From positions 27,870,782-27,934,781 of the forward strand of contig NC_065535.1 of the NCBI RefSeq assembly GCF_932294415.1: a DNA stretch of 64,000 nt. Direction: 5' to 3'. This DNA comes from Quercus robur (Eukaryota > Streptophyta > Magnoliopsida > Fagales > Fagaceae). Under the pieces are notes generated by a model, which did not search any database, had not been told where the DNA came from, and saw only the letters and a list, made by a program, of their open reading frames with translations. Shown here in pieces: positions 13,737 to 52,674 of this stretch. A program made the position numbers and the translations under genes. How positions within the stretch are numbered: position 1 is the stretch's first letter; every line of letters starts with the position of its first letter.

Positions 13737-13746
13737 CAAATGACAC
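13737..13746. repeat. Left 10-bp target-site duplication of giant MULE
   Basis: caaatgacac here is identical to 37697-37706, directly outside the two inverted-repeat tips. Mutator-like elements make 9-11-bp duplications. Confidence 0.9.
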
Positions 13747-14398
13747 GGCGATTTTGGCCCATTAGCACTGATTTTTAAAATATTTAGGCCCGAAACACTG
13801 TTTGGGAAATATTTAGGTAAGTACCACTTTTTTAGGTACTCGAGCTTGGAGAGCTCGAGTACCCCATTTTTCTGTTCCAACGTGGCACCTAACGTTGGAA
13901 CAGGAAAATTTAAAAAATAAGCTTGGTACCCGAGCTCCTGAAGCTCGAGTACTGCTCAGCGGAACTGAAAATTGCCCCCACACTTAAACCATCTGTTACC
14001 CACAATACCCAACCAAGAACAGAGCAAAACATACCCACAAACCAAACCTCTCAATCTCGCTATCTCCCTCTCTCAATCTCGCTATCTCCCTCTCAATCTA
14101 AAGCTATTTCCACACAAATACTCTCATTCTGCCTCTCAATCTCGCAAATACTCCCATTCTCCCTCTCAATCTCGCGATCTGCTTCATTCTCCGTCTCCGT
14201 CTCGCTCTCGGTCTCCCTCTCACAAGGTATGTCTCGCTCAGCTTGCATGTTTAGCTTGTGGGTATTTTTGTTTGTAAATTTGTTATTTTTATGCATAGAA
14301 ATGTTAAACTTACTAAGCCATATTGTGGGTATTTTTATGGGTATTTTTATGGGTATTTTTGTGGGTATTTTTATGGGTATTTCAAACAGAGGGGCATC
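13747..14398 (+). repeat. Left 652-bp terminal inverted repeat
   Basis: It matches 37045-37696 on the opposite strand; the one difference I found is in taagtaccac against taagttccac. It holds a hairpin (ggtactcgag...ctcgagtacc, about 13835-13863), a second palindromic ggtacccgag/ctcgagtac pair near 13925-13953, a CT-rich stretch (14045-14222) and a tandem gggtatttttat array (14327-14386). The open frame through it (13923-14411) is low-complexity and also present in the other arm, so it is not called as a gene. Confidence 0.9.
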
Positions 14399-15771
14399 CG
14401 AGTTCTTCTAAGGCTAATTTGTGGGTATTTTTATGCATAATTTGTAAGGCTAATTCGCGTATCGATGATGGCCGGGGGAGTGGAATCGTGGTCTCCGTCG
14501 CCGTCGCGCCTGAGGGAATAGGAGAAGGGAAAGTGGTGGTTGTTGGAGGAGCGATGGTAATGGCCTTTTCCGTTGGGTGACAGTGGTGCGACGTCGTCTT
14601 CGTCCTCATCTTCTTCTTCGCCCTTTCTTCTCCCTGTCTCCGACCAATTAGGGTTTTCAATTTCATTTCACAGAGTCGCCACGCGGACCATTTCCCCTTC
14701 AATGGCGCTTTGTAAGCTCTCTCTCTCCGAAAAATTTGAGTTCTTTTTCTCTTAATTTTCACTAATCCAACTGGTTTTGGCGCTGCAATTCCATGTCTTG
14801 GTTTTTGTTTTAAATTTTCAATACACGTATATGAACCATATATTTTAGTTGAGTTTGTAGAGTTGCACTTGCCCTTGGAAATGGGTGTTTTTCCAATATT
14901 TCAACTTTCATGGCTTTTAGACAGGGATTATATTGCTAAATTTAAAAATTTGTAAGACCAAAATCAAACCTTTTAAAATTGAGGGACCAAAAATGCAATT
15001 TACCCTCAACACTAAATAGTGGTGGTATAATTGTAGTTCTTGAAGCAAACAAAGGCAACAAATATAAACCTACAATTGATATTGCTCAAATTTGAGCTTC
15101 ACCAAACTTTGCAAAGTGCAGTGTTAAAACCTTGATGACAATGTTACTTACAAAAGCTTCTATTCCGACTACCATGCTTGTTTTTCTGTTGTGTACATGA
15201 GCTGCCATATCTCAATTTGACATCTTGATGTTGAAATTGGATTCCAAATCAGAGTGGTTGTGTCTTATAGGAAGTTTAGCTTTTATTTGAGAGGTTAGAC
15301 TAATCTAAGCCTTAATTTGATTCTCTCTTTTTTATAGTCTAAGTTTGCGTTTTTAATTGATCAGCATCATACACTTCAATTTCTAAATGCTTAGCAGGTT
15401 CTTCAAACAGAGACAACATAGGTGATTAGGAAGAGTTTTAAAGGAATTTATAATGATTAAGAAGGCTCATGAGTCATGAAGGATTTGATTAGAAACAACA
15501 AACATAAACTTCCCTGCAACCTTTAGAGCACACATAAGATAAGAAAAAAACTAGCAAAAAAGAGAGCCAAAAAAGGATCTTTCATGTATAGTCTTGCATA
15601 ATCTCGAATGTATCAATTCCAATACATAGAGTAAATAATACAATGCAAGCAAAAGTTTCTAGATTCAATGAGATATACAGCATATAAGAATTGTGTTTCC
15701 TGCATGTGCTTCATGATTCTCTTAATGTATAAATTCAGTTTAGGATTCTATTATTGAAAAGGAGATCATTA
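14399..15771. other. MULE interior, possible captured 5' exon
   Basis: 14,450-14,760 is GC-richer than its surroundings and encodes a poly-Ser stretch (codons around 14590-14620). It looks like a captured gene start or leader, but no family is recognisable. The rest is AT-rich and non-coding. Confidence 0.35.
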
Positions 15772-15884
15772 CTAGAATAAGTCCACCTCACAGCAAAAAA
15801 AAGTTAGTCCATAATTAAGGTTGTGGGGTGTGTATTCTCTGGGAAAAAGAAAAAGGTTTTGAGGGTGCGCATCCCCTGCCCATC

Positions 15885-16803
15885 TCACCCTAAAATCCAT
15901 ATTTTTCATGGTTCCTGTCTTGTTTGTCCTCATATGTCCAAGCTGACCACATGCCCCACAAACAAAACTCTCTCTTGCAGATTTCCTGTCCTTAAAAACC
16001 TTGACTTTATCTCCCGATATTTTGATTTTCTTACTGACTAGACCAACACTTGTGATATCATTCTTTTTCGTTAAAGCTTTCACCTAAAGCTTTCCATACT
16101 TGCCTTTTTTCGCAATAACATTTTCTACCTCCTTCATGTCTTTATTAAATATCTCTTTGGAAGAATAGGACCCATCAGGTTGGGCAGTACTGACAATTTG
16201 CTTGATCCGATTTGTGTTCTCAAAACCAAAACTTGGTTGCAAGCCCAAAGCCAGCCCTGTTTCCTCCCTCACAACTTTAGTCTTTTTCTTCTTCCTCCTC
16301 TCAGCCTCATCATCTTCCATGAGTAACCTGCATAATTCGGCAGCTTCAACGGCTTCATCTTCATTTTCCTCTTCTGCCTGAGCTATGGATGGGCGCCTTC
16401 TCATTTTGAGCCCCTTAACACCATCTGCTTTGTCATGCTTTGACTCATAGTTACCTACTTCTTCCTCACATTCCTCTGCATCAAGAAGATTCTCTAAATC
16501 CCCAGCAAATGAATCAAGATCACTATTTCCTTCAGAGTCACTCTCATTTTCACGATCTAAGGCAGAAAGACTCTGAACTTGTCGTTCCCAAATCTCCTGA
16601 CACTTCTCCCTTGTCTGCTGTTGCAGTTGAAGAAATGACATCTGCTGGCCACGCGCATACTTGCTGATAGTTGTGGGATCAATCTGTATCCCCGATGCAG
16701 CTTGCTCACTTGAAAGTTTGCGTATCATAGCAATACGGTGCCACGTAGTCAGTTTCGCAATCTCCTCCTCACAAACATCCAACTTCAGAAGAACCTCCCG
16801 TGC
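15885..16803 (-). pseudogene. TAF1: Captured TAF1 (TFIID subunit 1) fragment
   Basis: On the minus strand the reading starts AREVLLKLDVCEEEIAKL near 16803 and continues through WHRIAMIRKLSSEQAASG, ISKYARGQQMSFLQLQQQ, REKCQEIWERQVQSLS and MRRRPSIAQAEEE. An in-frame TAG interrupts it at 16084-16086. The same frame then resumes with KVKVFKDRKSARESF and the zinc knuckle VCGACGQLGHMRTNK before similarity ends near 15885. These are landmarks of the plant TAF1/HAF region between the histone acetyltransferase core and the bromodomain. In the intact protein this region serves basal transcription at TFIID. Here it lacks both ends, has a stop codon and lies inside a MULE, so it is a captured fragment. 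Transcription from the nearby TIR could give chimeric or antisense RNA. Confidence 0.85.
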
Positions 16804-16805
16804 TT

Positions 16806-16980
16806 TGCAGTATTTGATAATTCAACTATTCTTTTAGTCTTCCGGAACTCAAAACTAGGACTTCCATCCTGACTGACCTGGTCCAGGTCAATAATTTCTT
16901 TGGGCCGTTTGATTATGATTTTCTTCTGAGGCTGTTCTCTATCTGTTTCTGTAGGTGGATAAGACTGTTTTCTTTTCTTG
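16806..16980 (-). pseudogene. TAF1: Second captured TAF1 piece, out of order
   Basis: On the minus strand this reads PPTETDREQPQKKIIIKRPKE, then EIIDLDQVSQDGSPSFEF and RKTKRIVELS. In plant TAF1 this IKRPKEIIDLD block lies downstream of the zinc knuckle. Here it comes before the DVCEEE piece on the same strand, and the two are in different frames. The order was therefore rearranged during or after capture, or two separate captures were joined. The junction lies near 16803-16808. Confidence 0.75.
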
Positions 16981-19900
16981 CATGAGGGTCAGTGATAATG
17001 GGAATGGGTTAGAATTCATTGAATTTGTGGTTCCCACTAAGTTTTTTAGTTGGGTTTTAGTTTTTGGTGAATAATGTGTTGTGAAGAACTTAACTAGTTT
17101 GATTGTGTGGGTGCTGTGACTTGTGAGGTTGTGTTGGTGATTTTGGAACTTAGTGTAGGTAAGTTTAATTGAAGTTTCTCCTTTCTAAGGTGAGAAGATA
17201 TTGAAAGAGGGAGAGAGAAATAGATCATAGAGAAAGGGGATTTGGTTCCATTTTTGGTATTTTCAGCTAACACACTATAGGTAAATGCTCTCTCTCTCTA
17301 ATATTTCCACTTTGAAGTTTCACTGATCATAATTTGGTTCCATTTTTGCCTAATCCCATGTCATTCTCTCTATTTTTTAACAACGGGAAAAAATGGACTG
17401 ATGATATAGACCTATACAACTGAGAGAGAGTCTGAGTCTGTAAGGTAGAGATTGAAATCTGTGGGTTGCCTCCACTGTCAGCACGGACTGATGGTTCTTT
17501 TGTTTTTTATTTTTTATTTTTTGGTATTTGGGTTATATTGGGTTTTGCCTAAAGAAATTGGATTAGAATTGTTTTTGTTTTTGTCTATTTAGGTTGCATT
17601 CGTTTTGGGTATCTGTTTAAAATCAACATGCATGCCTTTTTATTTATGTTTATATTTTTTTTATTTTTTTTATTGGTATTTATTTCATTCCTTCTTCCTA
17701 TGTTCTTGTTTCTAATGTTCTCTTTGTTCGTTTTTGTCAAGTTATTTGAATGCTTTTTATTAAAAAAATTAAAATCAAATTTAATTTTTTCCTTGTAGTT
17801 GCGATACATAGGTTACAGCGTTCACAGATTATAGTGATTACGTCATTGCATTAGAACGAGCACCAAAAATTTTGAAAGGTAAGTTTTTATGAATTTCCCC
17901 CTTAATTGTCCCATTCTTAATTTAATCTTTTGTTAATAAATGGTTGATTAATTTGTGCTATATGTTCAAATTCCAACAACATTTGGTTTTTGAGATTAAT
18001 TTATGATTAGTTTTGGAGTTAGTTTACAAAAGAAACACAGTTGACAAAAATCTACATAAATAATTAGTTACATGTAAAACTATAGCTGTTGAACAATTAT
18101 TGATTATGATGTGAGGGGGTGAATTCTATTGAATTTTGAGTCAATGTTATTTTTTTTTTAAGTTCAATGTAGCCAAATAGATGCATTGAGAATCGAAAAG
18201 AGTTTTAGTTTCAGCATTCAAATTTAGTTAGTTGGTTGGTAAATATTTGTTTTTAAGGCATTGAAATCGGAAAGATATGTTATCTATTTGTTTATTATTT
18301 TGACTCAACCTATTAACTGAGGATAGAACACAAAAATCATTTACTTTTTGTTTGTGGGTCTGGGTTGATACTCTTCAAACTTTGTATTACATGCTGAGAT
18401 TGGTAACCTAAATGCATGTGTATGTATGTTTTGTTTGAAATGTGATTTTACAATTAGCTTTTGTTTAGATAGTTTCCCTCACCACGTGTTTGATGTGGAG
18501 CAACTTAAATGTTGTAGCCTAACTATGTTCATATTTATTTTTGTATTGTAGACAGTTTAGCCTCAGTATATGCACTTTATCTTTGCATCTTATAAGCCTT
18601 CAAAGAGATGAATGACAATATCTTCTTTGGTCTTGAAATATTTCTGGTATGTCCATACCATTCTCATCCTGCTTAATCATATTTAACTGAGTTATATTTT
18701 AGATTAAGTTACATTTTCAACAACAAATAATGACATAGGAATTATATGTGTAGCCAGTTGTAATTTCTTGTGGCTGGATTCTTTTAAAATAGAGTTCTAA
18801 ACATGTTTATATCTATAATTACTTATAGCTAGGAATTGATTTTCTCATGCCCAACCTTTACCACTCCGATGCAAAGAATTATTGCAATTCTTAGCCTGTA
18901 TGGATCATATCATTTGAGTTTTGTGTTTGCCTTTGTCTTTGTTCTTCTGCTTGCAATATCCCCACTAAATCTGGACATTTTTTCCACTGTATTATTGTAG
19001 TTCTTAGCCTATATGGGTCATTCATCTTTAGTTGGTTTATAATCATTTAATCCTTTCATAATTTTCTGCACACTTTGTGTTGGCATCATTAGAGATGCTT
19101 TGGTGAGAAAGCATATAAAGTCTTTGGAGGTTATTTTCCTTTCTTTCAAAAGAACAATGTTAGTCAAAAATGCCTATCAGTTTTTTGATAAATGTATTGC
19201 GAGAGAATAGGAGATCAGTGGCACTAAATTGAGTGACCATATTATATTTTATGAATATGACTTCCATTCTGCTCGGGTACTTTATTTTCACACATCATAG
19301 TTTGCTGATTTGAAGCTTTGGATCTTTATTTTCTCACATCATATTGGGGGCTCAATTGAGTTATTGTTTGCATTTGCTACATTTTTTAATTGGTTGCTTA
19401 AGCAGTAAATATTTTACTATGGGTTGGTAGTTTGAACAGTCAAGAAAGAAACCTGAGAAATCATAAAATAATTTTATAGAGATGCTAAATGTTATTATCT
19501 GCGCCATTCTAACTTGCGCCTTAGTTATTGTTAACTATGCTTTCTTCCTTTGAAAATTTGTTTGAACAATTTGGTGGGTTATTCTTATGAAAAGCATGCC
19601 AACTATAAAGTTTCCAGTTACTCATTATAGAACCCATAACCAACAAATTTGCCACTACCCATAAAGGTTTTTTTTTTTTTTTTTGGTTAATATATATGAT
19701 ATAGGTTTGGGTATTTTGGCTGGATTGGTTTTGATTTTGGTATTTGGGTTAGATTTGGTTTTGATTAAGTTATTTGGTAGACTTTTTGATATTAAATGAT
19801 CACATAAGAACTTTTGAAGTGGAATATACTCCACAAGTTTATGTGCTCAGTGCTCTTTACCTTAAGTGTCCAAATAGTGGGGTCACCTTAGTAGAAATAA

Positions 19901-20579
19901 ATTTGAAGCAAAAAATAGTGTATTTTGTGGAAGCATAACAAATTATAAAATAAGTTAAGTTGGAACTTTTAGTGTTTAATGAGTGGATTGGGTTTCTCAA
20001 AAAAAAAAAAAAAAGCTTTAGGGATTTTTAAAGAATGTGAGTGAAAGGTTTATGCATTTGGGATCAAATGTGGTCTGGACACTAGGAGTAGATGATGGCC
20101 TAGGTGTTTACTATTTACCCTCCCTAAAAAAAAATCACTAACATAAGCACTCTACCTTAGATACAGTAGAGAGAGAGACACTCTTGGTCCTTCACTACTC
20201 ACTATATGGTCATCAATAAAATTGGTTTCATTTTCAGGTACTACTCCATGTCTTGTACAACTAATGGGATTATTCTTCGTTCCAGAGTCTCTCCTAGATG
20301 GCTGGTGGGTCCAAATATCTTGATGGGAATGTAATTTATATGTTGTTTTAATTTTGTGACTAAAAAGAAGACGATTTGATCCCATTAGTGAAGAAGAGAA
20401 AGATCAATTTTTATGACATGTAACAATATTCTTTCATTATTTCATGACTATATAATATATATATGTGTCTGAATTGGACTTTATTGTAGATGTGGGATTT
20501 ATATTATGGGTGAAAAAGCTTACAACTATATCTATGTTGGTATTGGCTAGCACGTGCAGCCCAAAGTAATTCTGAAAAA
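16981..20579. other. MULE interior, intron-like DNA without clear genes
   Basis: AT-rich sequence resembling plant introns and UTR. Two exon-like islands are bounded by plausible splice sites: 17800-17878 (donor aaag/gtaag) and about 18606-18647 (MNDNIFFGLEIFL followed by gtatgt). Neither is identifiable. The open frame 17585-17809 (minus) is AT-driven low complexity. This may be intron-rich captured genomic DNA. Confidence 0.35.
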
Positions 20580-21025
20580 AATAGGACTGGGGGTTGACAA
20601 ATTTGCAAGTTGGCAGGTTGGTACCCGAGCTTGGTGGACTCGGGTACTTTGTGAAGTACCCGAGTCCACAAACCTCGGGTACCAACCTGCCAATTTGCAA
20701 AATCGTCAACATTGGTTACCTAGTCCTATTTTGAAAATTTGCAGGTTGGTACCCGAGCTTGCTAGACTCGGGTACTTCACAAGGTACCCGAGTCCAGAAA
20801 GCTCGGGTACCAACCTGCCAATTTTCAAAATTGTCAACGTGGTACCCAGGCCTATTTCGAAATTGGCAGGTTGGTACCCGAGCTTCCTGGACTCTGGTAC
20901 CTCACAAAGTACCCGAGTTCACCAAGCTCGGGTACCAATCTGCCTACTCCGGAATTACCAAATTTCAGAACAGAAAAAAAATGACTGTCAGATTAGTACC
21001 CGAGTCCACCAAGCTCAGTACATGG
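20580..21025. repeat. Palindromic GGTACCCGAG array, left copy
   Basis: Three or so head-to-tail units, each an inverted repeat of about 85-90 bp. A unit opens ggcaggttggtacccgag, passes through gactcgggtact and agtacccgagtcc, and closes ctcgggtaccaacctgcc. Spacers of about 35 bp (aaaatcgtcaac and variants) separate them. Each unit would fold into a long hairpin. A related array lies at 27224-27725, and a shorter version of the motif is in the TIRs. Confidence 0.85.
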
Positions 21026-21555
21026 GTAATTCTCTTTTTTTTTTTGAATTGGCGAGGCTTAATTAGAATGGTTTCGTATCTTCTTTCATTTTTTTCTTTT
21101 TGCGTCTTTCAGTATTTCAGTATTTATCCGTCATGTGATGATTTACTTTAAAGTTGTAAATCATGAATCAGACCAATAGGAAAGCAATGAAAAGCTTTAG
21201 CTGCCCTGATTATCATCAAGAATGTGACCGAAATTATTATCATGATCAAAGCCTGATTCAAGAAGCGATAAAAATGGAGAAAAATATCAAATAGAAATCT
21301 ACCATTGATCAGTCTTGAAGAGCAATCATATTATTTCTTGTATCAAACTTGAGATCCTGGCTTAGTTTGACATTACGCAACATGTACAGCAACATAAAAT
21401 CATGTCTTTGGTAGTACTAAAAAGGATATAAATCTAAGCACCCATAAAAGCATTTCAAGCCTTTCAAGATGAGAGTAGTATGATAACAAAAAGGAGATCA
21501 AAGGCAAGGCCCACTAATAATGATAGCCATGCCATAAAAGGAAACTATAACAATA
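21026..21555. other. MULE interior, no gene seen
   Basis: AT-rich with no recognisable motifs. It may include downstream sequence of the 80-aa ORF at 21556-21798. Confidence 0.35.
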
Positions 21556-21798
21556 TTAGTAGTTAGATGAGCAGTTGGTAGCACTTCCAACTCTTGGCAT
21601 GCCGACATTTTCCCTCTTCGACTCTTCATCCACGGTGAAAGTTACACCACACACCTGACCAGAAATTTCCACCCTTGGCACAGGCTTCACCTCATTAAGG
21701 GGGTGTTCATAACTCCTCAAGCCTCCAGACGATGTGAAGAAGCATCCTTTGGAAAACAACAGAAACAGATAAATCAGCAACCTAGTAGTCATGCTCAT
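21556..21798 (-). CDS. Putative secreted small protein, 80 aa
   Basis: The ORF opens with a Met, a basic residue and a hydrophobic stretch (MTTRLLIYLFLLFSKGCFF), which is a credible signal peptide with possible cleavage near residue 22-26. The mature part would be about 55 residues, hydrophilic, with two cysteines (SGQVCGV and TNCSSNY). I do not recognise the family. It lies inside the giant MULE between a palindromic array and the transposase gene, on the transposase strand. It could be a captured first exon or a full small gene. Base composition is higher in GC than the flanks, which mildly supports coding. Confidence 0.4.
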   Translation of the reverse strand: MSMTTRLLIYLFLLFSKGCFFTSSGGLRSYEHPLNEVKPVPRVEISGQVCGVTFTVDEESKRENVGMPRVGSATNCSSNY

Positions 21799-22388
21799 GA
21801 TGTAATATCAAACAAATAGACTATAGTATTAGTATCTGGAAGTTCATTCTAATAATTACACAAAATCAAAACAAGTCCTACTTTTTTGAACTTTTTTTAA
21901 CAATGTGGTAGATAAATGACAGCACTTGATAAATGGGAAAATGAGTTGATTAGAATACCATCAATTGTTGAAATATTTTGCAAAAATAGGGACTTCAGCA
22001 TGCTGAATTTGAATACTTATCACTTCATTCACATCATATCCTATTTTTTGTTTCAATCCAATGGATGATACGATTGAAAAACACTTGTAAGAAATGGGCA
22101 TTAGCATTTTACACATAATGATCCAACACATACAAAATCAACACTAGAAATAATGCAGTCATCAACACCAAGCATAAGAAGAGAAAGTCTTAGTCCCAAA
22201 ACTTTGGAATTGGAATGAACCACATGTACACAAGCAACGATGATATTTTAACGATATATGTCATAGTTGGTCCTTCAAATTTTTTCCAATCTTTCTTAAG
22301 TTATAAAAATACATAATTGAATGGCATATAGCATGCATTTTGTTTCAAGTTGCATTTAGAAGAATGCCACGGTTTAAAATTAGCGTAC
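21799..22388. other. Transposase 3' flank
   Basis: AT-rich, presumably containing the 3' UTR and terminator of the transposase gene. No gene seen. Confidence 0.35.
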
Positions 22389-25330
22389 CTAGTCTGCGAC
22401 ACCACCACTTGTCGGTACCTCATTCCGCTTAGGGCATGTTCTTCGGTTATGCCCCTCTTGGTCACACAACCCGCATTGCACCTTCCTCCCCCCCTCCTTC
22501 CACGGTGTGGTTCTCCGCCGTCTCCCACCCTCGTCCATCTCATTCCTGATTCGTGTTGAGACAGGGCGGCCTTTCTCTCGAATCAATCGGGGGTTAGGGA
22601 GGACCCTTCGAGTTTCTTCAGGATCCGGCCATGATAATCTATCTTTCAACGCAGGGAAAACGGGAGCATAGCTCCGAAACAGTGCATCCACGCTATAGCA
22701 TGGGTCAATGTATTGCTCTGCATCATGTCGATACCTAATACAAACTGCAATGACATGTGAACATGGTATCTTGTACAACTTCCATTTTTGACATGTGCAA
22801 CTTCTTTGCAACAAATTAACTCCATGTGTGTGATCCCCATGTCCAGCACTCTCTGGATTATGCGGTGTATCTACTTGATATGATTGTTGTTGCGCGCTCA
22901 ATCTTGTCACCCTATGACGCTCCGCCTTCGCCTTATTTCTCATGAAGATATCCAAGGCATATTTAGTCCATTTTTGTCCCGAATTTGACTGTGCTATGCT
23001 CTTATTGCGACGATCATCGAAGTAAGAATTCAATTTGAACCATGTGTATTTCACCATTGCCGTAATGGGCAAGCTACGAGCACCCTTTAGAACACCATTG
23101 AAGCACTCAGAGACGTTTGTCGTCATTGCCCCATAACGATAACCCTTGTCAAAACTTAGAGCCCATTTCTCTTTGGGCACATCCTTTAGATATTGGTGCG
23201 CATCCCGGTTGACATTCTCAATTAACTCGAAGGTGGCATTGAACTTTCGCTCTTGGGTAGCACTTGCTGCCCTCCATACTAGATTCTTTAAAGTTTCATT
23301 CTTCCATCTAGTGTTGACGTTACTACATAGATGACGAAGGCAGTAACGATGTTCTGTCATGGGAGGCCGCAGGGAAAAGTCTCGATTATTGTCTCTAAAA
23401 ATAGCTTGTATCCCAGGGTGTCTGTCAGATACGACACACAGGTGTCTCCGGTCAGTAACATACGTTCTTATACAAGCCAAGAACCAACCCCAAGTCTCTG
23501 TGCTCTCGCTCTCGACAAAGGCGAAGGCTACTGGATAAATTTTATTATTAGCATCTGTCGCCATTGCAATCATCAAGTTCCCTTTATATTTTCCATAGAG
23601 GTGGGTTGCATCAATGCTAATCACAGGCCTACACATCTTGAACCCAACAATACATGGACGAAACGCCCAAAATACGGACTTGAATGTACAGGTTCCCTGT
23701 TCATAATTATCGTCCACTATTAACTTATACTCTGTACCCGGACTTGCGTCCTTCAGTCCTGCCAAAAAACGCGGCAACTCCGCATAAGACTCCTTAAAAT
23801 CCCCGTATATAGATGCAACGGCCTTTTGTTTGGCATCCCATACCTTGTATGTGAACCATAATGATTACGTTAGAAATGAATACAAGTTAAATAAAGAAAC
23901 TTGAAGAAAACAAATCAAGACTTGTAAGACTATATTATTTCTTCGCTCCGCATTCCTTTTTTTCTTTTCTTTTTTCAATTTCAATTTTCATAATATAAAG
24001 TACTCATGGGTTTTGGGAAAAAAAATATCATGATTATACTTCCCAAAAGACTGATGTCTCTATGTTGTATTGAAAATATAATGCAAGTTAAAGAATAGAA
24101 TACCTTGTAATAAGATATTTCGTGTTTTAACTCTGCCAAAGCAACGTGGCGTAAGTTCTTTATCTTATACGCAGGGTCTTCTCGTATATAGCGCTCAAGT
24201 ACATATGATAAGAACACCGAATCAATCATCCGACCATCATGAGCATTCTGAATTTTGTCGCACGTGTGGGGGCCCTTGCATTTTGCGATCTTCCAGATAT
24301 TGTCTCCCTTGCAACATATCGCACGGACTGACCATGGACAGGAATCATCCTCGCAACTCACCATAAGCCTCTCTGAGTCTGAATGCTCAGTTTTGAAGCT
24401 AAAATTATCTCGCACTGCGTACCAAGTCAACGCACGTCGCACCGCCAATTTAGTTGCGAATACCATCCCTTTAATTGGCTGCTCCCCAGGCGTCCATGGT
24501 AATACTTCCGCTTGCATAACCGGTGATGGATCAAACATATTATCCCAAGTGTTTTGGGTGAACCATTCCGGCGTAGAATCGGGACCGGGGCATGTCTCTC
24601 TATTTTCTTCTACAACCACATCTTCGATATGATCAACATCCTCATGTTCACCCATGGTATCTAGGAGCTCCTCGAAGTCATCCCTAGTAACATCGATATG
24701 GGTTGCATCATCACCAAGTCCGTGATCATTACGGTTATTGTCGGATGTGCCCCTATGGAGCTCATCATCAGGTAAATGCTCTCCTTCATGCACTTGCTGG
24801 GGCCCTTCCTCCTCCTCAATCGAGTTCCCATGGGCAAATGTCTGCCACGGTTCATTGCCATACCCATCTCCTGTGTTCTCTACACACCCTTGATAAGATC
24901 TTTCTGGTATTGACTCGATGTGCTCATCTACTCTTCCATCCAAAACAGTATGTTCTGAACCCTCTCCAGCCTCTACTGTGGCGGGCTCAACAGTGACATA
25001 GAGATCCGAAGCAATGAATCCTCGAGCCACCATTTGTGCAACCATTTCCCACATCATCTTCACTTCGGTGCCACCCGATAATTGTAGTGAATTGTAGAAA
25101 ACCTGTGTGTCTACAACCCGTTGAGGTGCTCGATACACGATGGAAATCTTATGCCTAGAGTGGTCTAACCCCATCGCCTTCAATATTCTTCGTTGCAAGT
25201 TCATAAGCCCTATCCCACGTTTCACCTTAACGTATTTTTGCTTTTGGTTCGAGCCTTGGTATGACAACCCATGCAATGAATGATAATACATCTCCCCGTC
25301 GTAGTACACATAGAAAAAGTGAAAATCCAT
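22389..25330 (-). CDS. MuDR-type MULE transposase, two exons, intact
   Basis: Exons 25330-24104 and 23843-22389 join in phase 0 (aag/gta and cag-type junctions) for 893 residues with no stop. The start is the first ATG after an in-frame TAA at 25379-25381. Residues 1-110 are a PB1-like N-terminal region, followed by an acidic linker. A MuDR DNA-binding domain lies near 285-365 (ALTWYAVRDNFSFKTEHSDS, CPWSVRAICC). The MULE DDE core follows, with candidate acidic residues D487 (VISIDATHL), D549 (VVSDRHPGI) and E655 (TTNVSECFN), and CLRHLC near 577. A SWIM zinc finger (C758, C760, C770, H772) and a C-terminal zinc knuckle (CGLCDQEGHNRRTC) complete it. It would cut at the TIRs in the nucleus. Family membership is clear; activity is inferred from openness. 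Confidence 0.92.
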
Positions 25331-25381
25331 CACCGACCTATTATTAACAATATAAAAGTTGTCATCATCTATAACCACTTA

Positions 25382-26607: not shown

Positions 26608-26638
<31 letters not shown>

Positions 26639-27223: not shown

Positions 27224-27725
27224 CGTTACTTGGTGGCGGTCTTTGTGAAGTACCCGAGCCCACCATACTCGGGTACTAGCAGACTTCCTACAATAATAAA
27301 AAAAAAAAAAAAAAAAAAAGCCAATTTGCAAGGTACCACCATGTTGACAATTTCGCAAGTTGGCAGGTTGGTACCCGAGCTTGGTGGACTCGGGTACTTT
27401 GTGAAGTACTCGAGTCCAGCAAACTCGGGTTGGTACCTGCCAATTTGCAAAATCGTCAACATTAGTACCTTTTGTTCATTTGCAGGTTGGTACCCGAGCT
27501 TTCTAGACTCGGGTACTTCACAAGGTACCCGAGTCCAGAAAGCTCGGGTACCAACCTGGCAATTTTGAAAATGCCACTAGCAGAGTACCCGAGTTTGGTG
27601 GACTCGGGTACTTTGCAAAGTACCCAGGAGTGGCCCAGCGCAATTTTGAACTTACGCAGATTGGTACCCGAGTCCAGGGAACTCGGGTACCAATCTGCCT
27701 AAGTTCAAGATCACCCTTGTACTGG
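27224..27725. repeat. Palindromic GGTACCCGAG array, right copy
   Basis: Units like those at 20580-21025 and in the same order: gcaagttggcaggttggtac at 27355 matches 20605, and the unit with tctagactcgggtacttc at 27500 matches 20762. The two arrays are therefore diverged direct repeats about 6.7 kb apart flanking the transposase gene, although each unit is itself palindromic. A further half unit with a poly-A insertion is at 27236-27320. Confidence 0.8.
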
Positions 27726-28871
27726 GCCAGCGGTTTCCACAATACCATGGAGACAACAAGCTTGAAGAAACAATCTTGTAGCTCCTTTGAAGAGTCAAAC
27801 TTGAAGAAAGAGTGTGATTTCAACTAGGTCTTTCTAAAGCTTAACCAAACCCGAGCTTGAACATGCCCAGCAAGTATGAGCCTCTTTCATTCACACCACT
27901 TCTGGCATAGTAGGAATTAAGAAACAAACCCAGCTACGTTTGCATAAATAATGTTTTTTTTTTTTAAATAAAATAAAGCATAATGTTCATCAAATATGGT
28001 CTCACTTGCATGCAAATTTTCCATATAAACAAATCTAACTGTATTTACTTATAAAGTCTTTTTCTTTATATATGAGAATATAAAGGTGCAGCTCTGCAGA
28101 ATTCATGTCTCTTGCTAATGCGATGGTCCCATTGGAAATGTCCAATCTACAAAATAGTGAAAATACAAATCATAGAGATTAAAGTACATGTAACTTCTGG
28201 GTCTTAAGGAATCTAACATTGGAGAGTTTGGCGTTTATCAGAAATTAACCCATCTAATCATTTTCCCACACTTCCCCCCATTCTGCATATAGGTATCATA
28301 TTTGTTTCAACAACATAAACGTTAGCCTAGCCATATGAAAAATTCTGCAGAATACTGTTATATGGTCTGACGTTACTACATAGTCTCCATGACTTCTTGT
28401 TCAAGTCTTCTCCATCATCTCTGGACATCACCATTGAATAACATATTTTGCACAAAATTAAGGTGTTGTGATCACTAATGAAACTGCTCTAAGTTTGTTG
28501 TATTTGTTCATGCACTTCTTTTCCTCTTTATGTGGAACCTGCAAGAACAGCAGCACGAAAAATTAGAAAAGGCAAGGGAGGGAACGATGGTGGAGAGGGG
28601 ATGGAAATTGTTTAATTCTATTTTCTACATGGGATCCTTCTCTTACCCATGCCTGCTATCATCCAAGTCAGGAAGTGTGGCAAACAGAACTGCAAAAGTG
28701 CACGAGCCACATGAATTGAAGGATGTTTAATCCTTAGTGTTGATAGATGCTGCCACAAAAAGAACAACATGAAATACACTTCATTTCTAATTCAAGCAAT
28801 GAAGCAAAGAGAAGAATTAAAGAGAAGAATTAACATGAAGTGATGCAAAAAGCAGGAGGATGATAACTCAC
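27726..28871. other. MULE interior, no recognised gene
   Basis: AT-rich. An open frame at 28530-28730 has no recognisable features. It could be part of the captured gene whose exons lie at 28872-29154. Confidence 0.3.
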
Positions 28872-29154
28872 AGACAGAGGGCCGGGTGAAAATTCCATGT
28901 AAGGTTGATAAGTGTCAATCATTTTTGATGCCATTCTGCTAGCTGCATGCACTGTGCTAATACGGAAAATTCTTTTCTTCTCGTAGCTATTCATGATGAA
29001 GTCACAGAATTAGAATGCAGGGTAACCGAGTAAGAGTTTTTTCCCCCACTAAGACAGATTACCTTCTAAGTGTTGAGGCAGTTTCATAAGACTGTTGAAC
29101 ATCTGAGCCACTTTTGGCCAGCTTATCAAGCTCAAGTATAAGCTGGTAACAGTC
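28872..29154 (-). pseudogene. Captured exon pair of an unidentified host gene
   Basis: On the minus strand, exon 29154-29063 (after gtgcag, before gtaat) reads DCYQLILELDKLAKSGSDVQ and on to ASTLR. Exon 28986-28872 (after atag, before gtgag) reads YEKKRIFRISTVHAASRM, then IDTYQPYMEFSPGPLS. They join in frame across the intron through a split Ser codon. Good splice sites and phase agreement over two exons suggest genuine gene sequence with its intron kept. The family is not recognised. No start or stop is visible, so it is probably a fragment. Confidence 0.5.
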
Positions 29155-29926
29155 CTGCACATACAATTGTTACCATAATGAGCCTATAGGAACTTAGAAG
29201 AGATCTTTATCACCAACCTCAGGCATCCATTAGCAATAAATTTCATTTGCAACCTATCTGCATATTCTGAGTATCAATGACCAAAGTATCCAGTAGCCAT
29301 GCCAGATAATTTTCATTGCATTTGACAGGACATGGTTATGCTTAAATGAATATATAACAAAAGAATACTACATAAAAATAGAATTTCATGAGAATATTCA
29401 TTTCACAAATATACAAATACACAGTAAAAATTCCAGCCCTTGGCAGGTGAGATTTGAAAGGTTTGGGTTGCCAAATCCACTCTACATTGGACCTAAATCT
29501 AAACAATGTTAATAATTCCACTTCGTAGACCCTTTCTAGAGGCTGAACACACAATTAATAATAAAATTCACAGTTATAATTGCATCTACATTCGCTACGC
29601 CCAACTTCAACAAAAAGTTTCCTTCTATTGCATTTCTAAACATCCCACATTCATCTCTACAATTAGGAAATACCCATTAATAGAAACATCCCATAACAAC
29701 TGATTGTTGCCACAATGCTTACTAAAGCATGCACAATGCTTATCAACCACTACCATGAAATCATCTATATAAGAATGCCTATAACATTCCAGTCTATATC
29801 TTGTAATCCATGTGGATTGCATAATAGTGGCTCATCATATAAAATATATACAAGAAGATCCTATACATGACAAAAAGATCCTATACACCATTACAAACCC
29901 AAAGTAGCACAAATTCTGCCCTTGAA
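29155..29926. other. MULE interior downstream of PMD gene
   Basis: AT-rich. It probably includes the PMD 3' UTR close to 29926. No gene seen. Confidence 0.35.
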
Positions 29927-32791
29927 TCATTCTCGTTTTCTTCTCCTCACCGGTTCCTTGACTGGTCTCACCTTGCCTGAAAAGAACACAACACAAGCAA
30001 ATATTAATAAGCAAATGATTTAACTATAAAGCGATGTATATGTAATCGGTATCGAATCAAACTATAGTACCATGTCCAGTCCCACAGTCAGGAGGATGTG
30101 TCCGTGTGCGTTGCGGCCTTCGTGGCCGATCCTCGATGTGCGAAGGCTCTGCTGGGGGGGTGGGTATTTGTGTCTGGATAAACTCGGTATGCACAAACTC
30201 AGGGGGGGCAGCAACAGGGGTGGGTCGCCCAGGAGTGGGCATGAACCTCATCTCATCTCTACCATCTAAAACTGCGGGGGCAAGGCTGGCAGTCAGTGGG
30301 GGAGACGTACGGGTGGTGGGCAACAGAGATGTACTAGGGGGTGTGGGTGGGCAAGTACCATCGCTCCTCATGGATGGGGACCCAAATGTGTCTCTATGGG
30401 CAAACGTATGGGATGGACCCGTATCATCGTGTGCCATGGACCCTACGTCATAAGCAGTGTCGTCCCACATCTCATCTGTTGTCTGACTTGCTTCCTCCAT
30501 GGTGTGGTCATGCACGGGTGTGTGGCGCCGACTAGATGTGGGCACGGGTGTGTGACGCCGACTAGATGTGGGCACGGGTGTGTGACGCGAACCAGATGTA
30601 GGACGCTGAGCAGATGTGGGACGTCGACTAGATGTGGGCACGGGTGTGTGACGCTGACCAGATGTGGGAGGCCGACTAGATGTATGACGCTGGCTAGATT
30701 GACAGCCTCCACGCCCTTGACGTCCACTTGCTTGCCGACCACGTCGTACAGCTGGTTCACTTGTGTTGCCCACGTCACGTGCATGGTCCAAGGATAACCG
30801 ACCGATCTCTTCAACAGCTTGCAAGGCATTAATACAATCGGTGTAGATCTCAGACCCTGGTTCGCACTTCGTTATAATGTGCAACTGTGATTCAACCTGT
30901 CAGAAAAATACAAGAGTAATGTTAGTAGGTTTAACTAAACTATGCGAAGCAAAGTACATTTATAATGAAACAGTCTTTGTAAATTTACCAAAGTGTCCCA
31001 GTACGAAGTCTCTTTTGTAATATGGCGAATAGTGCGGGGACGAAACCAAACCAAATACTCGTCATTGTAGTTCATCTCCCCGTGAAAGGCCGGTGCATCG
31101 GCAATTTTGGCGTGCGCAGCCCATTTAGCAATATGCGGGGCATGTATTTGGGCCCAATCTTTTTCGTGCTTGCCCTGGAGGGTGATCTTGTGCAGTTCAA
31201 TTGAAGTATCAACATTTTCTGGTATGCCTTGCTTCATCCCAAACTGTCGGAGAACACGTTCGGGATGATGGCCTTCAACCACCCAAAAATGTATCAGCGG
31301 CACAATAGACCTCCATATACGTTGGCCTGCCGTACAATATGCGGGTAGAGAACGCAAATAATTTCTGTACGGTTCCCAAACAATCTGCAATGATTCAACA
31401 GATGCAAACAACCATATTAACAATATAATTAGAAAAAATGTGTAACGAATGTGAACAATACATGTAACTCTGAAATTAAGAATGTTTTTTTTTTTTTTGA
31501 TAAGTAAGAAAGATATATAATTAAGAATGTTTATTCACTCCAAAGTGATAAGTAAGTACAAAAACTACATGCCAAAGCGGTTTCCACTTGTAAGACACGA
31601 TACCTGATTTGGCCGCAGTGAAGTAAACGACACACGATAGGCACGTAGGACGTGCATCGAATGTTCAGTTGTTATCTTAGCCCCTTTCCATCTAGCAACC
31701 AACACAGACATAACCTTCATATTAGTTACTTACATAATTCTCATGCGAACAAAGTTATTGAGGAAATGTAAAACGATAACTATCTAAGATGCTACATACC
31801 TGACAGCAAGTGGACCTGGAGGCAGTGCCTGGTGTGGATGCCTCATCACAGGACATATGTGGGGAAACCTCGCCCACGCCCACAACTGCACCAATAGTAG
31901 TGCACCCCCAATCTGCTTGGCTGTCTTCTCTGATGCCTTACAGAGGTGTCTATAGAGCCAACTTAGTGCTGCACTACCCCAACTATACTTTTTTCCATTG
32001 CTGATTGGATCGAAATATTGCAAATACCTAACTGAGATCCGTTCTCCAGACTTATCCATAAATAGCGTACCACCTAACAACTCCAATATGTAAAAACGAG
32101 CATACTTCTGCACAAGCGCCTCAGGGGCGTCAACCGGGAGAGGGTCGCGAAACTGATCCTCAAGCCATTTGGCTTTTATGCTCGCCCCTTCCAGCACTCC
32201 AGTGTTCTTTCTTGGGTTTCTAAGTTCTCTATTTGGCGGAATACGCCCTAGCAATCTTCTGCAGACTTCACGCCAACTGCCCGTCGAGGGTATAGATTCC
32301 ACCAACGGCAAGCCATCTACAGGTACCCCCATTATAACCTCCATATCTTGTAGTGTGATGGTCATCTCACCGTGGGGCAAGTGAAATGAGTGCGTCTCCG
32401 GCCGCCATCTCTCCACCAACGCTGTGATCAATGCGTGGTCAATGTCCATATGTGGGACCCGAAGCAGCCCATCTAACCCCGCATCAGTGATATAAGCGAG
32501 AATTCGTGGATCTAGCCCATCTACCCCTCCTTCAACCAGACCTTTGTCTCGGTGACGACAAGTCAATACACCTGGCACTTCCTGCAAATAGAGCAGCGTA
32601 GTATTAATAATAATTACAGTACCACATAATAAGTACGCTTCAAAGTTAAATTCCGCCCATCTTTCGACTACATATATTGAACAAGTGCATACCTCGCCTT
32701 CCAAATGAGCATCGAAAAGCAAACTTGAACGATGCTTATCCTGCCTCGTGCACAAAGTCTGTATAGCTCCATGTGGGTCCATATCTGGCAT
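29927..32791 (-). CDS. Plant mobile domain (PMD/MAIN-like) protein, intact
   Basis: Six exons with GT-AG junctions join in frame: 32791-32693, 32581-31800, 31691-31604, 31384-30989, 30896-30071, 29976-29927, giving 746 residues. The PMD core spans about residues 60-420, with typical blocks: LITALVERWRPETHSFHLPH, GEMTITLQDMEVIMGVPVDG, ALSWLYRHLC, LLLVQLWAWARFP and HFWVVEGHHPERVLRQFGM. PMD proteins occur as host silencing factors (MAIN, MAIL1) and as transposon passengers. A Ser/Arg/Thr/Pro tail has tandem repeats of about 10-13 residues (PTSSRRHTPV). The last exon adds a basic, NLS-like end (VKEPVRRRKRE); without that splice, the frame would end ten bases past the junction. The gene lies 4.6 kb upstream of the transposase on the same strand. 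A role in countering or tuning silencing of the element is speculation. Confidence 0.85.
30520..30680 (-). repeat. Tandem repeats in the PMD tail
   Basis: Units of about 30-36 bp built on gactagatgtgggcacgggtgtgtgacgc (plus strand) encode repeated TSSRRHTPVP. Unit number probably varies between copies because the DNA repeats are nearly identical. Confidence 0.75.
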
Positions 32792-34566
32792 TTGGAAACA
32801 ACATCAAGACAGTCTTATTTATTTATTTTTAATTATAAACAAATTTGTCTGAAAATGGCAACATTATTCATCTAATACAGTCTTAAGGTGATTTAATAAA
32901 TTATTTTAGAAAAGTTAGTTATCAAAGCATGTGTTTCGACAATTGATTCATTTAACAAATTAACATTTCTTTTGATAAATTAACATAGTATCAAAGCATG
33001 TGTTTCTACAATTGAAACTTATCTCTACACTACTAAAATAAATTATAAATAACATAAAAACGTGTTAAAATAATAATTAAATTAACTATTTTTTAACATG
33101 AGACAGAACTTTTTATCTTGCAATGTGTGCATGTGCGTGAGTGCGTGAAAAGATTTGTGCAGCTCATGGGTCCGGGATACAATTATAATTTTCCGAGTAA
33201 CATTGGAAAGATATACATTTGGACCACAATACCAAGTTCCCATTCACATTGGCAATCAGTATTCTCAAAACCATATCAGTTTCCTTAAAGAATAAGAGAT
33301 TGCAGTCATTAATAAATTTTAATTGATTTAATTAGTACAAAATCTTGAAATAAATTTTGATGCTGTCACTTTTCGCCATTTGGGTTATTTACATACCAAT
33401 CACACCCAAAAAATGCCAAAAATGTAAGCGCATCATGGGTAGTTCAATTTTCTTCTCAAATATAGAGTTTCAATGGCTTATTGACTTGAATAAAATGAAT
33501 TACAAAAAAAATTTGAGTACGCGATTGTGTGGTGCAATAACATTCTTCACAATACAAATTGCATAAATTCTCTTTTTAATAAATCTAAAATATTCAAATA
33601 AACTTGCATATTCACATTTGCATTAACCCAGTATGCTGAAAAAAATATTGGAGACAAAAGCCACTGCCATTCTTGAACAGAAACAAGCAGCAGAAAGAAT
33701 GAAAGAAAACAAAATCAAACAGAAAATGAAGAAACAATAAAATTCCAGCAATTATGAAATAATAGCACCACAAGTATGGACTGAGGTGTGAGCCTTGTCT
33801 TCCTTAACTATATTTAGCAGAAAGAATAACATCTTCCATGATATGCGTATTGAACAATGTTGGAAAGATCAATACATGGGGAGGGAAACTACAAAGTACA
33901 AATCATGGAGAACCATACAAGACCAAAACAATCACAAATGTTGCTTCTTATTTTTATAAGTGCAAATTCAACCAACAAGTTACAAGCTTTCCTCTTCACA
34001 TGGTTAACTTGCTGCTTTAGACTTGAAAAGAATGAGACTTGAGAGTATTAACTCTAAAGTTTTTAGGATTATTAGAAGTTCACTGTTGTATAAAGAAGAG
34101 AATAACAGATTTCCATATGTTAGTTTCAAAAAGAAAGAAAAACCTATGAAATTCTTCCATATGTTAGTTCACTGTTGAAATTTGAGCTCTAGTTGCATAT
34201 ATTGTCTGCCTGTGAGTCTATGACATCAAATGGTGGACTAAGATCTCAACAGAAGGGGAACAAAAACAAAGACAAAAACGAACTAAGTACATGCATGTAT
34301 GACTTCAATACTATGTTAATTGTTTGAGTATCTATTTCTAATTTAAGAACAAAACTATACCTTAAGGTAATCCTAAAAGGTAGAGTCACAAAAAGGTAAA
34401 ATTAATTAATTAATTTCACCTATAGCTAATATTAAGTGTGATGGTGCTAATAACTAATACTCCAATATGTCTCAGTTACCAAACATATTACTGACTGAGA
34501 AACTAGAGCCTAAGATTTCAGACCCATCTTATCAAACTACAAGTTAAAGACTGAAAGGATGGAAAC
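32792..34566. other. PMD upstream region and MULE interior
   Basis: AT-rich, presumably with the PMD promoter near 32800-33100. Beyond that no gene is seen; the last part may be intron sequence of the kinase gene captured next to it. Confidence 0.35.
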
Positions 34567-35006
34567 CACTACAAATGATGTTTTCAATTTTGGGGTTGTG
34601 CTACTTCAACTTTTGACAGGAAGAAAGCCAAAATCTCTGTTTAAAGAGGTATGCTCTATTTAACATGTTGTCTCCCATATAGTTTAGCATGTTACTATTT
34701 TATAAGTAGTTTTTTCACCTAAGATGGTAAATTCCAGCGGATTAGCTGAATATATTTCTATTGTCAATTGTAACTGATACAGGCAAGGAATGCAATAATG
34801 AAAGGAGGAAGCATAAGTGCCATGGCAGATCCATGCTTAAGTGGGGCTTATATTGTAACTGAATTTCAAAATGTATTATCGATAGCTGTTCAATGTACTA
34901 CTCCAAATGAGCAAGAAAGACCAAACATGGAAGAAGTCTTACAGAAACTTGAAGAAACCCATATTTTAAGTCTAAACTTCAAATCCAATTGCAAGAATTT
35001 TTGAAA
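34567..35006 (+). pseudogene. Captured receptor-like kinase C-terminal fragment
   Basis: Exon 34567-34648 reads NDVFNFGVVLLQLLTGRKPK then SLFKE before a gt donor. Exon 34783 onward reads ARNAIMKGGSISAMADPCLS, TEFQNVLSIAVQCTTPNEQE and RPNMEEVLQKLEE. These are subdomain IX-XI features of plant receptor-like kinases (G-VLL-LLTG; A--C----RP-M--V---LE). The catalytic core upstream is missing. The intron is retained, so it was copied from genomic DNA. The frame ends in TGA at 35002-35004. Confidence 0.75.
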
Positions 35007-35093
35007 AAAAAAAATGTTTGGAAGTTGGAACCAGCAATGCTACAAAATATGTTTTATGGATTTGTATTATATATTTCTCATTATAAAATTAAG

Positions 35094-35648
35094 TGCCAAC
35101 AATGGTCAATCTTGCACACATAGAATTGATAGGTCTAGTCCTGAACGGTTCAATGATGGGATCAGCCTAAGGGATTGGCTTAAACCTGGGCATAGTAAAC
35201 TAAACAAAGCTGAAAGTGTGCTTATATTCAGGCAGATTGTGGAGTTAGTGGATTCTGCACACTCTCAAGGAGTTGTCTTAAATGACTTACGGCCATCTTG
35301 TTTCTTTTTACTGCAATCAAGTAGAGTTAAATACACTGGTTCTTCTACTTGATGTCAGAGAATTAGAGGGTGTGATGTGTCAAGAATCATTTCGGAAAAG
35401 GCCATTGGAACAAAATGAGCATGCCTACCTTAGTTTGGGTGCAAAGCAGCGAAGAATATGTGAGGAAATGAATTCTATTAAACAACAGCCTTACTTCATG
35501 ACTAATGGTGGCTTCAGTACTAAATCAATGAAAGAGACTGAAATTTCAATCACTGGTCCAGAAGATTCAGGACAAACTGAACTTCAGTCTCAAAACAATT
35601 CCAGCTGCCAAAATAAATCACTGGCTGCACAGCAGACTAGATTTTTAT
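35094..35648 (+). pseudogene. Captured SPA-type kinase-like domain fragment
   Basis: The reading ERFNDGISLRDWLKPG, LIFRQIVELVDSAHSQGV, LNDLRPSCFFLLQSSRVKY matches the kinase-like domain of SPA proteins (SUPPRESSOR OF PHYA-105 family, partners of COP1 in light signalling). After a stop and a frame change near 35350 it continues as QESFRKRPLEQNEHAYLSLG and ITGPEDSGQTELQSQNNSSC, which follow in SPA proteins. The coiled coil and WD40 domains are missing. It is a broken fragment inside the MULE, directly after the receptor-kinase piece. Confidence 0.8.
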
Positions 35649-35852
35649 GATTCATGTTGTTACTTTCAAAAATTGAAAATAACCCAGCTGCTAAAGTACA
35701 GTTGAATAAAGTTTTTTTTATTTTAATTTTATGTCTTGGCCTTTTCAAGTTCCAATGAATGACAATTCCTTGTTCATTTCTTTTCTCAGAACCCCAAGTT
35801 CTGGTAATGAAATTTTAGGACGATTTGAAATTCTGGGTTTTGTGAATTTTTC

Positions 35853-35981
35853 AAGAAAGCAGTGTGTGAGGCGGCTCCAACTAAGAAAGCAGACTCAGCT
35901 GCAAAGAGGGCTCGTGAAGCTGAGAAAAGGCGCATCTACAACAAATCCCGCAAATTTGAAATCAAGACCCGCATGAAGAAG
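35853..35981 (+). pseudogene. RPS20: Captured plastid ribosomal protein bS20c exon
   Basis: The frame reads AVCEAAPTKKADSAAKRARE, EKRRIYNKSRKFEIKTRM, KK and ends at a gt donor at 35982. This matches the start of mature chloroplast 30S ribosomal protein S20, including the transit-peptide junction VCEAAP and the conserved AAKRAR/RRIYNKSRKS core. Only about 43 codons are present; the C-terminal helices are absent. The possible acceptor ttttcaag/aaag suggests one captured exon. Confidence 0.8.
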
Positions 35982-37044
35982 GTGCTTATTATACATTCTT
36001 GTAAAGAGGACTATGTTTAATTCTATTTTTGTTGTGGGCTCGCACTTTATCTGGTTTTAGGATAGTTTTTATGTTCGATTGTTCAGTAAAAGGCTTCTAG
36101 ATATCAGTGATGATATAATGATATTAGAGCTAATGAGCTCTGGCTCGAATGGCTTCTTCCCTTCTAAGAGCAAGGTAGGGGGTGTGGTTGTGGGTTCAAG
36201 ACCCATACAAGGTGTGTGTGTAAATTACCAATATATAGAAAAATTAATGGTATAATGATGTTTTATATATTATTTCAAACTGAAATTTTCCTTTTAGATT
36301 ATGAAGCTATGTATCAAATCATCTTGATATGAAACTTCTCTTTTTGTTTAAGAATCATTAACAGGGTCACGATAAAGATCAAAGATCTGCTTTTCTTCAA
36401 ATTAGTGTGATCTATCTACTATAACATGAAAGGCACTTCCTCCTATCAACATTGGTAGCCTGACGATTCTCAGCACAACTTTGGAGACCTAAATTCTTAT
36501 GTTTTTTATTTCTTGTTTTTGTTGTTGTTCTTCTTCTATATTTCATGTGTGGTTAAACTAAATCAAATAAAAGGGTAAAGTTTATGCACAATATGTTAGG
36601 TGCTTAGGTGCAATATATGTTTCCCAATTATGTTCAAACACAGCTGCATTGAAGTTACTTGTCTTTGGAAATATAATATTGTTTGTGTTTCATTGGTCAA
36701 TGCAACCATGTGTTTGTATTTATTTGGGGAACTAATGTACAAAACTTATTTTTGCCTAAATTTTGTCCCAAATTAAAATATCCTTTTTAATTTTTAATTT
36801 TTAATTTTATGTTTGGTCCATATCTGAATGAAACATCCATGTCGATATCTAGATTGGTATCATTCCTATATCTTTAAATTATTGAGGTAGAATTTGGGGT
36901 TTCAATCCGTAGGCCTCATTATTTGCTGACTTTCATGGACAGAACCTTTCATGAGTGAATCCAGAATTGAACCCAAAAGACAAGCACAACAAGACCAACA
37001 TTCTAGTAATCACCGAAAAATATAAATTAACTAACTAACTAAAT
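35982..37044. other. MULE interior before right TIR
   Basis: AT-rich, possibly intron from the captured bS20c gene at first. A SINE-like stretch is listed at 36125-36250. Nothing else recognised. Confidence 0.35.
36125..36250 (+). mobile_element. tRNA-derived SINE-like repeat
   Basis: An A-box-like gctctggctcgaatggcttc is followed about 55 bases later by a good B-box gtgggttcaagaccc, then an AT-rich tail. This is the pol III promoter layout of plant SINEs. Confidence 0.5.
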
Positions 37045-37696
37045 GATGCCCCTCTGTTTGAAATACCCATAAAAATACCCACAAAAATACCCATAAAAAT
37101 ACCCATAAAAATACCCACAATATGGCTTAGTAAGTTTAACATTTCTATGCATAAAAATAACAAATTTACAAACAAAAATACCCACAAGCTAAACATGCAA
37201 GCTGAGCGAGACATACCTTGTGAGAGGGAGACCGAGAGCGAGACGGAGACGGAGAATGAAGCAGATCGCGAGATTGAGAGGGAGAATGGGAGTATTTGCG
37301 AGATTGAGAGGCAGAATGAGAGTATTTGTGTGGAAATAGCTTTAGATTGAGAGGGAGATAGCGAGATTGAGAGAGGGAGATAGCGAGATTGAGAGGTTTG
37401 GTTTGTGGGTATGTTTTGCTCTGTTCTTGGTTGGGTATTGTGGGTAACAGATGGTTTAAGTGTGGGGGCAATTTTCAGTTCCGCTGAGCAGTACTCGAGC
37501 TTCAGGAGCTCGGGTACCAAGCTTATTTTTTAAATTTTCCTGTTCCAACGTTAGGTGCCACGTTGGAACAGAAAAATGGGGTACTCGAGCTCTCCAAGCT
37601 CGAGTACCTAAAAAAGTGGAACTTACCTAAATATTTCCCAAACAGTGTTTCGGGCCTAAATATTTTAAAAATCAGTGCTAATGGGCCAAAATCGCC
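37045..37696 (-). repeat. Right 652-bp terminal inverted repeat
   Basis: Reverse complement of 13747-14398, with one difference noted. It contains the same hairpins, CT-rich tract and gggtatttttat array. The tip lies at 37696, directly against the target duplication. Confidence 0.9.
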
Positions 37697-37706
37697 CAAA
37701 TGACAC
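37697..37706. repeat. Right 10-bp target-site duplication of giant MULE
   Basis: caaatgacac, identical to 13737-13746. Confidence 0.9.
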
Positions 37707-52550: not shown

Positions 52551-52674
52551 TGCATGCAGCCCCCCCCCCCCCTTTTGTTTTTGTTTTTTTTTTTTTTTGT
52601 GTGTTTGTGTTTTTTTTTTGTGTGTTTTTTTTGAAAAAAATGAGTACAAGACATACTTACCAGTGGTCTGATGG

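Follow-up and report, generated by a model that had tools for sequence, protein, structure and literature searches.

What kind of mobile element can fill almost 24 kb of an oak chromosome, and what does it do with the genes that it carries? In a 64,000-nucleotide stretch of the Quercus robur genome (contig NC_065535.1, positions 27,870,782 to 27,934,781; hereafter the window), the interval 13747-37696 is a Mutator-like element (MULE) of 23,950 bp, with two open genes—a transposase and a plant mobile domain (PMD) gene—and fragments of host genes. We somewhat favor reading it as an autonomous two-protein MULE whose recurrent dyad motif is bound by a protein of its own, plausibly a PMD protein that resembles the VANC proteins of Arabidopsis VANDAL elements. 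Its terminal inverted repeats, or arms, are 652 bp long (left, 13747..14398, plus strand; right, 37045..37696, minus strand) and equal at 651 of 652 positions (99.85% identity, the lone mismatch at 13823/37620), and their tips match perfectly. A perfect 10-bp target-site duplication, caaatgacac, flanks them at 13737..13746 and 37697..37706 and occurs nowhere else on either strand of the window. The ends, the two open genes, and the several host-gene pieces aboard (from about five genes) all agree with a first-pass annotation of this DNA. Long inverted repeats, a duplication within the expected 8-11 bp, and a MULE transposase with three acidic positions place the element in its class, and an open transposase gene between intact ends makes it autonomous in coding terms. 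The same annotation had called it an autonomous Pack-MULE, which is right as to one transposed unit with autonomous coding capacity; the name Pack-MULE does not strictly apply, because the window copy has its own transposase. The element may be currently active, or may supply transposase to relatives.

Does the interval represent one element at all? Its length is unusual for a MULE, and the first-pass annotation had itself raised the possibility of an assembly join; nested unrelated insertions could likewise mimic one element. Searching the 785.7-Mb genome with the arm, as that annotation had proposed, returned at least 51 matches (40 of 591 candidates were scored, such that all counts are lower bounds), among them full-length sister copies. 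In addition to the window copy (E1) we read 22 loci: 13 larger copies (E2-E14, 2.7-29.4 kb) and nine small ones. Perfect 9-10-bp duplications were found at 21 of these 23 loci, window included, the exceptions being E2 (none found) and s9 (unpaired). E2 (23,959 bp), E4 (23,950 bp), E5 (23,445 bp), and E8 (25,272 bp) have an architecture like that of the window element. Because similar architecture recurs at these loci, most of which have target duplications of their own, we rejected an assembly join or nested artifact, to which we give practically no credence. The window element belongs to a multicopy family and is not a lone Pack-MULE; the interiors of other copies are about 91-99.8% identical to it across the four blocks compared, and nine copies span 20.4-29.4 kb, any nested insertions included. 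Five copies (E1, E2, E4, E5, and E8) have both genes open, while E7 keeps an open PMD gene beside a truncated transposase. Both genes are broken in E9-E11; the transposase and part of the PMD gene are missing from E6 and E12; and E3, E13, and E14 have neither gene, with no transposase exon found in the latter two.

The two genes lie on the minus strand, and their exon borders are models derived from the sequence. The transposase (25330-22389) has two exons joined by an in-frame GT-AG intron and encodes 893 amino acids; exon 1 (24104..25330) holds the Pfam domain DBD_Tnp_Mut (PF03108), and exon 2 (22389..23843) holds the MULE (PF10551) and SWIM (PF04434) domains. Three acidic positions, which we take to be the catalytic D, D, and E, and a C..H pair are invariant in all 10 sequences aligned. 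No relatives of the transposase were confirmed in the viral contig and genome contig collections. The PMD gene (29927..32791) is a separate model about 4.6 kb upstream of the transposase, with six exons (32791-32693, 32581-31800, 31691-31604, 31384-30989, 30896-30071, and 29976-29927), five introns that are all GT-AG, and an open frame of 746 amino acids (PF10536) that ends in a stop codon. Its tail contains a tandem repeat (30512-30699), whose repeat count and length vary among relatives. Between E1 and E11, a broken copy, dN/dS is 1.14 for the tail and 0.43 for the domain; between E1 and E8 the values are 0.90 and 0.71, and between E1 and E2 they run in the opposite direction (0.17 and 0.48). 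Repeat-rich variable regions are also described for VANC proteins (PMC5735166).

Which DNA might these proteins recognize? Among the 10-mers of the arms, a single overlapping set recurs at least four times within the element, and it belongs to the dyad GTACYCGAG-N9-CTCGRGTAC. The element contains 17 such dyads at up to 4 mismatches of 18, of which 15 are exact; the arms hold four, and two noncoding arrays hold the other 13. At the same threshold none occurs in the coding exons or the rest of the window, and none appeared at up to three mismatches in 100 Markov resamples. Other half-site spacings gave five matches (21), 10 matches (29), and one each (1, 14, 16, and 17), those at 21 and 29 arising because adjacent dyads cross-pair. 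In the left arm, dyad 1 (GTACTCGAG-N9-CTCGAGTAC; 13836..13862) lies at position 90 from the tip and is conserved in the family, and dyad 2 (13926..13952) forms one hairpin with it (z -9.8); their right-arm counterparts are at 37581..37607 and 37491..37517. Array 1 (20605..20950) is a foldback tandem array of six dyads in units of about 128 bp, and array 2 (27250..27690), between the PMD and transposase genes, has seven. Genome-wide there are 1,317 dyad sites with zero mismatches, compared with 0 for the reversed pattern. Among 50 distinct sites listed, all on one contig (C1), 21 fall in E5 and 22 form 11 pairs 262-656 bp apart, one of which is the small element s8; of the remainder, two are 9.2 kb apart and five are single. 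The MAIN/MAIL1 DOWN motif showed no enrichment, and five motifs from the translated array were absent from the 308 proteins searched.

Is the dyad simply the binding site of the transposase? This is a serious rival to binding by PMD, and we give it somewhat less than an even chance: the arrays would then be regulatory decoys or by-products that became amplified, and PMD would have another role. Position argues for it. Of 44 arm ends (22 paired elements, up to two mismatches), 43 have the dyad 89-91 bp from the tip, the exception being the left arm of E14, and eight small elements have no dyads besides those of the arms. Alignment of small and large elements shows similarity dropping just beyond the arm dyad. 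At three of five dyad places read on C1 there are small elements with a different, tip-like end, an unchanged dyad position, and duplications, of which two are perfect and the third has a single mismatch; of the other two places, one lacks a clear duplication and one is single-ended. The ends suffice for transposition, yet 13 of the 17 dyads lie inside the element, in noncoding arrays in which the half-sites are kept and the remainder of the unit drifts, which argues against a site serving the transposase alone. Across the 44 arm ends, conservation in the half-site columns equals that of tip columns 9-19 and exceeds that of the rest of the arm start, and dyad number varies among similar copies. 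All of these tests were made after the motif had been seen and on related copies, so their p values are only indicative. The three small C1 elements (L049, L050, and L051; 525-632 bp) share the other tip, GGCCAAAATGGC, with the dyad still about 90 bp from the end; similar tips occur in E9, E10, E11, E13, and E14.

Could the arrays instead be foldbacks that mainly feed host small-RNA silencing, with the motif kept by hairpin maintenance? Folding of two array units is extreme (z -14.7 and -12.3), as is that of the arm stretch that holds both dyads. Hairpin maintenance alone would not demand that the half-site letters be kept while the spacers drift, and we consider this explanation improbable. 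We have high confidence in the broader proposition that a protein encoded by the element recognizes the dyad. Which protein is a more tentative matter: that it is PMD falls short of an even chance in our estimate.

What would make PMD the most attractive binder? Structure models of PMD match the fold of VANC21, a comparison made after the analogy with VANC had been drawn; a search of the PDB gave no sequence-level match between PMD and VANC up to E 10. The layout is also VANC-like, with a second gene of VANC-like fold and a motif limited to arms and noncoding arrays. VANC proteins bind short motifs, tandemly repeated in the noncoding DNA of VANDAL MULEs, and remove methylation (PMC5735166, PMC10398659). 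In the mechanism that we propose, the transposase would cut at the tips and insert with 9-10-bp duplications, working in cis as well as on defective relatives; a protein encoded by the element would bind the dyad near the ends (about 90 bp from each tip) and in the noncoding arrays; PMD would be that protein and would counter silencing of its own family as VANC does; the transposase might share the dyad site or use the arm copy alone; and the host fragments would be passengers. The fullest version—that oak PMD is a sequence-specific anti-silencing factor targeting the dyad, that PMD and VANC are one DNA-binding fold, and that intact copies protect dyad-bearing relatives in trans—is possible, but we would put it nearer one chance in three than one in two. 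Several points weigh against a VANC-like PMD. In Arabidopsis, PMD proteins work in silencing; a transposase could also make use of the arm dyad; and dN/dS among the copies does not demonstrate selection on PMD.

Might PMD be a transposition helper, in a role like that of MURB of MuDR, or a functionless passenger? Between copies, dN/dS is near relaxed for PMD and no lower than for most host scraps. We rejected a claim of strong purifying selection, since the changes are too few and most host scraps look no different. MULEs have captured PMD on more than one occasion (PMC5418596), as a tentative tree made here also suggests, and MuDR has helper proteins (PMC9168764). On the other hand, six of the 14 larger copies have an open PMD gene, E7 with its truncated transposase among them, and two Lithocarpus gene models (P0017 and P0165) hold PMD followed by transposase. 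For these two reasons PMD is more than another captured scrap, and we regard the helper or passenger role as unlikely. Pieces of PMD and transposase are interleaved in a Q. suber gene model (P0043), and a model from another eudicot, Vaccinium darrowii (P0112), contains PMD and MULE transposase at about 36-39% identity.

How does the family compare with known systems? Like the Pack-MULEs of rice and other plants, it carries host fragments with an intron between MULE arms flanked by 9-10-bp duplications, and the transposase-less E13 and E14 fit that description; unlike them, the window copy has its own transposase and a second gene, and is 24 kb long, whereas no Pack-MULE of Jiang et al. 2004 exceeded 7 kb (PMC6431247). 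The PMD-bearing MULEs of grasses and Amborella also combine a MULE transposase with PMD, but PMD is described as fused to the transposase there (PMC5418596), while the oak PMD is a separate six-exon model in a eudicot; eudicots have mainly genic PMD-C (PMC7156037). VANDAL21 of Arabidopsis is likewise a MULE with a second protein, VANC21, whose fold is matched by the PMD models, and with a short tandem motif in noncoding DNA. Its motif, YAGTATTAY, is unrelated in sequence to the oak dyad, the proteins share the fold alone, and the oak target is predicted. The oak element also has long arms, which VANDALs, to our knowledge, lack. Kaonashi/ULP MULEs, the Mutavine families of grapevine, and Abermu of barley resemble the oak family in joining a transposase with extra captured or unknown genes. 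The Ulp1 protease domain of the first was not found among the Pfam matches of 10 open reading frames (ORFs), nor among those of 83 of the 133 listed ORFs of at least 45 amino acids. Lengths reach 17.7 kb among the tabulated MULEs of grapevine and 8.2 kb in barley, compared with 20.4-29.4 kb for the nine long oak copies.

Extra genes in MULEs, MULE-borne PMD, Pack-MULEs, and VANC systems have all been described before. As far as the accessible parts of the open-access literature show, a separate PMD gene in a 24-kb eudicot MULE with many host fragments is new, as are the dyad and the link in fold between PMD and VANC21. Nothing combining oak with Mutator was found in the open-access literature, and the accessible text of papers that name both VANC and "plant mobile domain" draws no link between the two proteins. 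PMD function is called unknown in what is accessible of PMC8616336, and transposon-borne PMDs that counter silencing are offered there and in PMC5418596 as speculation only. The oak family gives a structural reason to expect that PMD binds DNA, along with a candidate target, intact genes, and the 1,317 genomic sites as controls. If the proposal is true, a single DNA-binding fold serves both transposons that escape silencing and plants that impose it (through MAIN/MAIL1), and intact 24-kb copies shield probably hundreds of dyad-bearing relatives in trans. An apparently autonomous 24-kb family, longer than the MULEs compared in the accessible literature, amplifies host-gene scraps, and a long-lived tree holds the series from autonomous copies through Pack-MULE-like to miniature derivatives.

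How old is the window copy? The first-pass annotation had taken its near-identical arms as a sign of youth, a reading that the family does not bear out. Each of E1-E5 has a pair of arms with 0-2 differences over 560 bp, yet arms of E1 are 3.6% apart from those of E4. Each of E6-E14 has a perfect duplication but much less similar arms, identical at 77-89% of aligned columns and with 94-210 gap positions between them. Arms seem to have been homogenized in some lineages, and we rejected arm identity as a plain clock. The smallest of the larger copies, E3 (L018, C37:65053278-65056018; 2.7 kb), is built mostly from the right 1.3 kb of the element, present twice in inverted orientation, and is flanked by a perfect 10-bp duplication. 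This layout is reminiscent of Mu killer, the hairpin-forming silencer of maize MuDR.

When and how was the host cargo acquired? On the minus strand, a TAF1-like fragment lies at 15775..16988; its match to TFIID subunit 1 (structure 4rgw, E 5e-13) covers the ORF 16821-16084, and 16988-16822 is presumably part of the same fragment. A C-terminal fragment of an aluminium-induced protein (DUF3700, above the Pfam cut-off) lies at 21625..21754, also on the minus strand. The plus strand carries a 3' fragment of a receptor-like kinase (34473..35001; 88-95% per-block identity to a Q. suber protein), a kinase-region fragment of SPA1 (SUPPRESSOR OF PHYA-105; 35086..35638; 93-94% identity to the unnamed protein P0240, several co-matches being named SPA1), and a fragment of ribosomal protein S20 (35829..36017; Pfam 27.9 bits, slightly below the cut-off of 29.5), whose source we take to be the plastid ribosomal protein gene. 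The kinase and SPA1 pieces are about 85 bp apart, and their relatives lie on chromosomes 01 and 11 by Castanea mollissima locus names (P0247 and P0244). The kinase piece retains a GT-AG intron (GTATGC...ACAG) and was therefore captured at the DNA level; the S20 and DUF3700 pieces have intron-like AG/GT edges. What had been described as captured host exons are indeed host fragments, but the kinase and SPA1 pieces are frameshifted relative to host relatives and are therefore scraps rather than working exons.

Twelve other larger copies were compared for cargo, E3 being left out. The TAF1 ORF occurs in 10 of them at 98.5-100% identity, the first part of SPA1 likewise in 10, though incomplete in some, its second part in seven, the kinase piece in six, and the DUF3700 piece in nine. 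Since cargo is shared, and copies without transposase bear some of the same fragments, sequence comparison indicates that much of it was acquired before amplification. In Q. suber, Lithocarpus, and Castanea, some gene models also fuse pieces of this PMD or transposase to pieces that their names or domains mark as host genes, among them ELP4 in two and IDN2 in two (P0016, P0020, P0025, P0029, P0040, P0049, P0103, P0107, P0114, P0121, P0129, P0132, and P0165). These chimeras are either sister-copy captures or annotation joins; we did not accept them as proof of capture, because annotation may fuse a transposon with a neighboring gene.

Outside the element, direct repeats of 1.9 kb at 50432-52341 and 57632-59541 (96.2% identity) look like the long terminal repeats of a retrotransposon, apparently inserted where the sequence of 38786-39534 occurs a second time. 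A reverse transcriptase ORF lies at 41584-42468, and a scan of 71 of the 83 flank ORFs gave one match to RVT_3, one to Retrotrans_gag, and two to NAM. A tandem repeat array with a spacing of about 73 bp occupies 52650-53407.

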